A stretch of DNA of 64,000 nucleotides from Occultella glacieicola (GTDB taxonomy: Bacteria; Actinomycetota; Actinomycetes; Actinomycetales; Beutenbergiaceae). Location: positions 62,001-126,000 of the forward strand of contig NZ_SMNA01000003.1 of the NCBI RefSeq assembly GCF_004353825.1. Reading direction: 5' to 3'. The notes beneath the pieces were generated by a model, which was given only the letters and a program-made list of their open reading frames with translations, made no database searches and was not told the DNA's origin. Position numbers and translations under genes: made by a program. This document shows, piece after piece, positions 5,569 to 52,755 of the stretch; the stretch's first letter is position 1, and the number at the start of each line of letters is the position of its first letter.

Positions 5569-5641
5569 TAGCCCCGACCGGATTCGAACCGGCGCTACCG
5601 CCGTGAGAGGGCGGCGTCCTAGGCCACTAGACGACGGGGCC
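5569..5641 (-). tRNA. tRNA-Glu (anticodon CUC)
   Basis: A 73-nt cloverleaf read on the minus strand. The 7-bp acceptor stem (GGCCCCG/CGGGGCU) has a G-U pair at 1:72, the anticodon loop reads CCCTCTCAC with CTC as anticodon, the T-loop has GGTTCGAATCC, and the discriminator is A. CCA is not encoded. It lies 53 nt downstream of tRNA-Gln and is probably co-transcribed. Its charged form is the substrate of HemA at 62190. Confidence 0.97.
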
Positions 5642-5694: not shown

Positions 5695-5766
5695 CTGGGG
5701 TACCAGGACTCGAACCTAGACTAACTGGACCAGAACCAGTCGTGCTGCCAATTACACCATACCCCA
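5695..5766 (-). tRNA. tRNA-Gln (anticodon CUG)
   Basis: A 72-nt cloverleaf on the minus strand. The acceptor stem pairs TGGGGTA with TACCCCA, the anticodon arm is ACTGGTTCTGGTCCAGT with CTG as anticodon, the T-loop is GGTTCGAGTCC, and the discriminator is G as usual for tRNA-Gln. CCA is not encoded. Most actinobacteria lack GlnRS and charge this tRNA with Glu through GltX before GatCAB amidation, so its nearness to gltX is fitting. The 119 bp between this tRNA and the next gene hold no feature I recognise beyond its likely promoter. Confidence 0.97.
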
Positions 5767-52266: not shown

Positions 52267-52581
52267 TCAGCTCACCACCTTGAGGCCGACGACGCTCCCG
52301 ACGAGCAGCACCAGCAGCGCGATCCGGGCGATCGACGCCGGCTCCTTGCCGGCGAGCATCGCCCACACCACGGTCAGCGACGCACCGATGCCGACCCAGA
52401 CGGCGTAGGCCGTCCCGGTCGGCAGGCTGGTCATCGCGTAGGCGAGGCCGGCCATGCTGGCCACCATCGCGACCACGAACAGGATCGTCGGACGCACCTT
52501 CTTGAAGCCGTCGGACGCCGACAGCGCCGAGGCCCAGACCGCCTCGAGCATTCCGGACAGGACAAGAATCAACCAAGCCAT
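52267..52581 (-). CDS. Small multidrug resistance protein, Gdx (guanidinium exporter) type
   Basis: A 104-residue SMR protein very like Gdx/SugE: MAWLILVLSGMLEAVWASAL (central Glu), SDGFKKVRPTILFVVAMVAS, MAGLAYAMTSLPTGTAYAVW and VGIGASLTVVWAML. The G-TAYAVW-GIG motif separates Gdx-type from EmrE-type proteins. These antiport guanidinium for protons. AGAAGG lies 6 nt before the ATG and directly follows the riboswitch-like structure at 52594-52635, so translation is probably ligand-controlled. First gene of the SMR pair. Confidence 0.92.
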   Translation of the reverse strand: MAWLILVLSGMLEAVWASALSASDGFKKVRPTILFVVAMVASMAGLAYAMTSLPTGTAYAVWVGIGASLTVVWAMLAGKEPASIARIALLVLLVGSVVGLKVVS

Positions 52582-52593
52582 GATGGGCCTTCT

Positions 52594-52635
52594 GAGTCAG
52601 TCTTGTCGCTTTGCGGGTACTGCTCCCTCGTCCGC
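52594..52635 (-). promoter_or_regulatory. Candidate guanidine-III (ykkC-III) riboswitch
   Basis: On the minus strand the conserved blocks GCGGACGAGG, then TACCCGC, then GACAAGACTG appear in order within 42 nt, as I recall them from the Thermobifida fusca guanidine-III RNA. Pairing fits the H-type pseudoknot. GCGG (52635-52632) pairs with CCGC (52616-52613). GAGCAGT (52625-52619) pairs with ACTG-CTC (52601-52594) with one bulged A (52597). The Shine-Dalgarno AGAAGG of the SMR gene follows directly. Guanidine-III elements occur mainly in actinobacteria upstream of SMR exporters. The rest of the 174-bp gap after hemL holds no clear feature. Confidence 0.85.
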
Positions 52636-52755
52636 AGACCCTCGTCGGGCCTCATCAGCCAGGGTAGCCGACGGGCCCGACGGCGTCCCTGTGGGTTTAC
52701 TCACCGCCTCACCCTGGTCGGTGGTCGGCGTGGCCCGCGGCCAGGCCCGTGCGGG

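Follow-up and report, generated by a model that had tools for sequence, protein, structure and literature searches.

A guanidine-III riboswitch, very probably with ON control, ahead of paired Gdx-type SMR genes in Occultella glacieicola

The window analysed here, a 64,000-nucleotide stretch of an Occultella glacieicola contig (NZ_SMNA01000003.1, positions 62,001 to 126,000), carries on its minus strand two adjacent SMR genes, SMR1 and SMR2, with a single nucleotide between the stop codon of SMR1 and the start codon of SMR2 (Table 1). They are the sole PF00893 matches in the genome (cut-off 23.7 bits). Ahead of SMR1 lies a leader with a Guanidine-III element, and the three other genomes of the genus that were examined also have such an element, between the same neighbours as in the window: a class-III aminotransferase gene upstream, which we take to be hemL, and a LytR-CpsA-Psr gene downstream.

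Table 1. Features of the leader and of the exporter gene pair, in window positions.
Feature	Position	Strand	Basis
-10-like element TACCCT	52661..52666	-	TANNNT position relative to GGACGA
Candidate anti-Shine-Dalgarno strand UGAUGAGGCC	52648..52657	-	Complementary to Shine-Dalgarno/start; overlaps P0 5' strand
P0 hairpin: AGGCCC 52652-52647, loop GACGA, GGGUCU 52641-52636	52636..52652	-	Within RF01763 match
Aptamer, H-type pseudoknot	52594..52636	-	RF01763, 49.1 bits; pairs read from sequence
Segment GGACGAGG	52633-52626	-	Sequence
Segment TACCCG	52619-52614	-	Sequence
Segment GACAAGAC	52607-52600	-	Sequence
P1, 5 bp	U52636-G52632 with C52616-A52612	-	Read from sequence
P2, 7 bp, A52597 bulged	G52625-U52619 with A52601-C52594	-	Read from sequence
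Shine-Dalgarno AGAAGG 52593-52588, spacer CCCAUC 52587-52582 (6 nt), A of start codon	52581..52593	-	Sequence
SMR1, Gdx-type subunit, 104 aa	52267..52581	-	PF00893 78.7 bits; 6wk5 E 5.3e-22; charge bias +4
SMR2, Gdx-type subunit, 120 aa	51903..52265	-	PF00893 74.6 bits; 8vxu E 5.2e-20, 6wk5 E 1.4e-19; charge bias -1

Judged by their sequences, SMR1 and SMR2 are most likely guanidinium exporter subunits. Their best solved-structure matches are 6wk5 and 8vxu, both SMR proteins, with EmrE worse by more than 10 orders of magnitude, and 6wk5 is Gdx-Clo according to a table in the available text of PMC9574504. Residues E13, W16, S42, Y59 and W62 are present in both proteins, as is a G64-x-G66 motif; the five residue positions are those of PMC7695847, in which W16 is the Gdx marker (glycine or alanine in Qac). 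Gdx-Clo has the same five residues and the helix 3 GXG in common with both proteins, over a nearly full match length. In contrast to Gdx-Clo, the proteins here are encoded by two neighbouring genes and have charge biases of opposite sign, and both miss the NCBIfam SugE equivalog cut-off (NF008512, the best NCBIfam model for either, at 95.6 and 78.1 vs 126 bits), a value that is an annotation threshold and not a definition of Gdx. The first-pass annotation of this DNA had called the genes a Gdx-type SMR pair, and the Pfam matches, structure matches and signature residues agree with it.

Paired (heterodimeric) Gdx genes make up about 20% of Gdx transporters (PMC9574504, available text). Both the adjacency and the opposite Arg/Lys bias of such pairs are found here, with a value for SMR2 (-1) that is weak and was computed, like the others, within loop limits of our own choosing. 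In 31 pairs from related loci (window included, SMR1 additionally limited to 108 aa), the charge bias of SMR1 exceeded that of SMR2 every time and SMR2 was negative in 29; the mean for 147 single SMRs was +1.0. We infer that SMR1 and SMR2 assemble as a heterodimer.

In an Rfam search of the 64-kb window, RF01763 (Guanidine-III) matches the minus strand from 52656 to 52591 over the full length of the model (positions 1-67), with 49.1 bits against a gathering cut-off of 36 and an E-value of 3.7e-7. When the search is restricted to 1 kb the E-value becomes 5.8e-9, and no second match there reaches E 1. The earlier proposal of a guanidine-III element at this place had been staked in part on a significant ykkC-III covariance match, and this score bears that part out. 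The 5.3-Mb genome holds a single RF01763 match at E 0.001 and, at the same threshold, no guanidine-I or guanidine-II element. The only other Rfam matches in the window at gathering threshold are two tRNAs, which lie as a pair on the minus strand (5569-5641 and 5695-5766) with 53 bases between them.

All three core segments defined by the Rfam consensus are intact, namely ACGA (52631-52628; also given in PMC2864571), ACCCG (52618-52614) and ACAAGA (52606-52601). The three longer segments in Table 1, which the first-pass annotation had reported in the expected order and pairing, do lie so on the minus strand, where a complete P1/P2 pseudoknot can be read. It was equally right to place the Shine-Dalgarno against the aptamer, as AGAAGG follows directly 3' of P2; 12 nt separate the last aptamer base, 52594, from the ATG start codon at 52581. 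The extent given earlier, 52594-52635, covers the minimal aptamer but omits the outer P1 pair, U52636-A52612, and the whole of P0; U52636 is able to pair in P0 or in P1. Among the related leaders described below, a P0 helix of at least five pairs occurs in 166 of 185 (the window has six), and one P1 pair is of a standard type in 188 of 191 (C-G 162, G-C 22, T-A 3, G-T 1) and broken in 3, a variation among standard types that makes good covariation for the pseudoknot.

Here, we propose, with a probability of roughly 0.9, that the element is a guanidine-III riboswitch with ON control of the exporter pair. As it belongs to the Guanidine-III family, its ligand would be guanidinium, the ion of a toxic waste molecule, guanidine; this assignment comes from earlier publications about the class. 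The ON direction would likewise carry over from that work, being stated, together with a ribosome-site model, in the available text of PMC5696562 and PMC12186494. The class was found in potential 5' leaders of emrE/SMR or speB-type genes (PMC2864571), and the window element also lies before an SMR gene by Pfam. That this is an already-known riboswitch class before a known kind of target is well supported, with any novelty only in the proposed output wiring.

The aptamer of Thermobifida fusca (structure 5NWQ; PMC5696562, available text) has the same P1/P2 pseudoknot, core order, position before SMR genes and proximity to a ribosome-binding site. The differences lie in the details: P1 is UGCGG/CCGCA here vs CCGG/CCGG, the commonest form in the 191 leaders, and the Shine-Dalgarno comes directly after the aptamer, as opposed to 16 nt away in T. 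fusca (same source). The window also differs from the T. fusca aptamer and the class in having a bulged A in P2 and a linker complementary to the P0 5' strand.

Guanidine-III before SMR genes is ordinary and widespread in actinobacteria. At E 0.001 or better, the Guanidine-III model has matches in 13 of 24 family genomes (9 above the cut-off), in 191 of a 396-genome sample of the order (181 above) and in 51 of a 396-genome sample of the phylum (42 above), in samples that overlap and include the window's genome. The comparative leader set was drawn from 250 loci, those of the order comprising 100 fetched among the matches listed in addition to the loci that the order search gave; 202 were kept, and 191 after removal of 11 identical leaders. 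The 185 leaders with linkers of 14-32 nt served for the pairing and folding tests unless a smaller n is stated. Of the 48 loci dropped, 44 were without the core motif in the scanned stretch, one was under the score limit and three were without a start codon. Since 25 of them stem from the Rfam searches and hold an RF01763 match (L006, L009 and L013 of the window's family included), the kept set leans to standard cores.

Paired SMR genes were counted in 39 of 202 loci at first and in 34 of 191 after exclusion of second genes of at least 150 aa or more than 60 nt off, counts that may be too low because recognition of the second gene relied on a short residue pattern. A P1 of the form GCGG/CCGC or GCGG/CCGT goes with paired genes in 23 of 23 loci and a CCGG/CCGG P1 in 11 of 162, and the two loci with a GCGG/CCGG P1 have a single SMR. 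This association is mostly shared ancestry, as all 34 paired loci fall within one 37-member clade of the SMR1 tree.

The wider set also holds loci with other targets or other cores. At L185 (1001-1590) and L228 (1001-1611), from different families of the order, Guanidine-III stands directly before a GNAT acetyltransferase gene (PF00583, 73 and 63.9 bits). GNAT enzymes with guanidine-IV variants and a canavanine-selective GNAT have been described (PMC9788692 and PMC10416765, available text), and the words acetyltransferase and GNAT are absent from the literature checked for them. At L127 a Guanidine-III match of 55.4 bits precedes a gene for a 'putative small multi-drug export protein' (PF06695, 52.2 bits), which is not an SMR by the Pfam scan. 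L122 has an arginase-family gene after the element (PF00491, 256 bits) and L133 an arginase-family-like gene that resembles that of L122 by eye only; such targets fit the speB link of the class (PMC2864571). Within the window's family, the Guanidine-III scores of L006 (1501-1567, minus strand) and L009 (1501-1568) exceed the cut-off, at 47.1 and 42.4 bits. Both elements lie before an SMR-like reading frame, have a 3' core that deviates from the usual GCGACAAGAC and are possibly a variant aptamer. At L013 (1501-1562, minus strand), a sub-threshold Guanidine-III (28.4 bits) is followed by an apparent SMR gene which, by eye, is reduced to its ends.

Where might the transcript begin? The pattern TANNNT at -36 to -32 from GGACGA occurs 68 times in the 191 leaders and is rare elsewhere, and the window has it at -33. 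A consensus scan of the window leader found no sigma-70 type -35/-10 pair. From the position of TACCCT (52666-52661), the transcript probably starts around 52653-52655, where the 5' strand of P0 has its foot.

If the element is a riboswitch, how might it act on the exporter genes? In the mechanism that we propose, the leader without ligand would adopt a fold that pairs the Shine-Dalgarno and start codon, the most likely partner in the genus being the P0 5' strand. Rising guanidinium would stabilise the P1/P2 pseudoknot, and P0, whose 3' strand abuts P1, would close and stack on P1, with release of the Shine-Dalgarno. The co-transcribed SMR1 and SMR2 would then form an antiparallel heterodimer that exports guanidinium in exchange for protons. 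Translational release of exporter expression is, in our judgement, the rather likely mode of control, as it fits both the short distance between aptamer and Shine-Dalgarno and the prediction in the literature. In that prediction, the bound ligand probably makes the ribosome site accessible because it destabilises structures that compete, which are unnamed in the available text of PMC5696562.

Both P0 strands were tried as a family-wide anti-Shine-Dalgarno and rejected, having failed a partner-swap control in 113 representatives (for the P0 3'/P1 5' strand, -8.63 in native pairing vs -8.47 when swapped, a value equalled or bettered by 1045 of 5000 permutations; for the P0 5' strand, -7.21 vs -7.13 and 1708 of 5000); P0 was kept as a candidate for the window's genus only. 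The P2 3' strand (GAC and the next bases) behaved differently against the nine pre-start bases, with a native value of -5.47 vs -4.79 when permuted; no permutation of 5000 was as good in 167 leaders, and 46 of 5000 were in 72 strictly chosen ones. In within-locus shuffles, this strand fell in the best tenth at 61 of 185 loci, while three other segments did so at 11 to 19. Pairing drops when the register is slid (0.27-0.44 vs 0.70 in register, first six pairs), a slide of -3 giving 0.66 with only three countable pairs. Covariation is confined to the fourth and fifth of seven possible pairs, which are kept in 128 and 144 of 185 leaders vs 109.5 and 119.8 permuted, with several pair types; the first three are uninformative, their left side being invariant, and the sixth and seventh are not above permutation (427 and 322 of 1000). 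A competing helix between the P2 3' strand and the pre-start bases of related leaders is suggestive only, because the signal is gone in swaps within one P2 class (737 of 5000, n = 167; 2375 of 5000, n = 72), the P2 base behind it has undergone only 11 changes on the SMR1 tree of 181, the last two pairs stand at permutation level, and at least four contiguous pairs in register are found in only 69 of 185 leaders.

Folding programs gave no clean switch. The plain fold of the leader is no stabler than shuffles (z 0.00, in a program without pseudoknots), and blocking the aptamer in silico took the mean chance of a free Shine-Dalgarno in 185 leaders from 0.54 to 0.39, with a rise in 49 only, and that of the window from 0.33 to 0.26. 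Taken at face value, the aptamer-blocking folds run against a simple ON-switch model in these 185 leaders, and as pseudoknot-free programs that include no ligand they neither refute nor support the switch.

In the window's genus, the P2 3' strand pairs hardly at all with the pre-start bases, with values of -0.2 to -0.9 in the four loci vs a median of -5.7 elsewhere. The candidate anti-Shine-Dalgarno strand of Table 1 would pair with 52589-52581 on the minus strand, and its first bases may precede the transcript start; a start at 52655 would leave this OFF helix without its outer pairs. The duplex of the window's P0 5' strand with the Shine-Dalgarno/start region comes to -14.2 kcal/mol (0.1% of 2000 shuffles as good) and ranks 7 among 185 loci, and those of the three congeners come to -19.2, -18.5 and -14.9 kcal/mol, with the congeners at ranks 1, 2 and 6. 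The helix has 10 bp in one congener vs 9 bp and a bulge in the window. On swapping, -14.2 was reached by 1.0% of pairings when start regions of the genus were given P0 strands from other loci, and by 3.9% when P0 strands of the genus were set against the start regions of other loci. Energies as strong are found outside the genus at L018, L079 and L224, among the first seven, so the match is not unique to the genus, and the self-complementary GGCC makes matches between P0 5' strand and start come easier.

For the three congeners, folding predicts the OFF fold as the minimum, 0.7 to 3.6 kcal/mol below the P0-forced fold. In the window the predicted minimum is instead the P0 hairpin (-24.3), because a linker base present in the congeners is missing and the OFF helix is bulged; the window's Shine-Dalgarno is also able to pair into the coding start. 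The window's own copy of the switch may, on these folds, be leakier than those of its congeners. We offer the P0 5' strand as the OFF partner of the start region in the genus as a tentative assignment, for which four related loci are little evidence. A terminator-like hairpin match (52590-52575, minus strand) lies over the Shine-Dalgarno end and the start codon, one found vs a shuffle mean of 0.1; the poor U run of its tail makes a terminator less likely than a further means of concealing the start region.

Several other readings bear on these results. The main effect of the element could be on transcript stability, with a bound pseudoknot near the 5' end blocking RNase E scanning and Shine-Dalgarno pairing playing a minor part. 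RNase E protection has been reported for guanidine-III (Richards and Belasco 2021, cited in the available text of the review PMC12186494), the aptamer and P0 sit where the transcript is predicted to begin, and the folds described above show no clean switch. However, the Shine-Dalgarno directly adjoins P2, and in relatives the complementarity between pre-start bases and P2 3' strand exceeds that of shuffles, which protection alone would not need; we regard stability as an unlikely main effect, if one to be taken seriously. A far less probable reading is that the window uses the helix of its relatives and not the P0 5' strand: complementarity in one register recurs across related leaders, but the near absence of that pairing in the four loci of the genus speaks against it. 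Least probable of all is that the aptamer has changed its ligand by drift or ceased to function, since the core segments of the window are intact and its neighbours are guanidinium-type exporters, even though the family includes relatives whose cores are altered.

Returning to translational control of the exporter pair, the two candidate helices can be joined in one model, which we hold to be doubtful as it stands. The platform of the class would be the P2 3' strand, shared by the pseudoknot and the pre-start helix, and in this genus it would be replaced by capture through the P0 5' strand, with the aptamer kept and the output rewired. The literature searched, part of it as partial text and with the main biochemical paper (Sherlock and Breaker 2017) outside the search, holds no description of either output wiring.

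We present a testable model of how the guanidine-III class reaches the ribosome site, a point left open in the available text of the crystal-structure paper, along with what appears to be the same sensor with a rewired output in the window's genus. For the exporter pair itself, the riboswitch points to the probable substrate and to the signal that probably controls the genes, both of which are less certain from the protein sequences alone.
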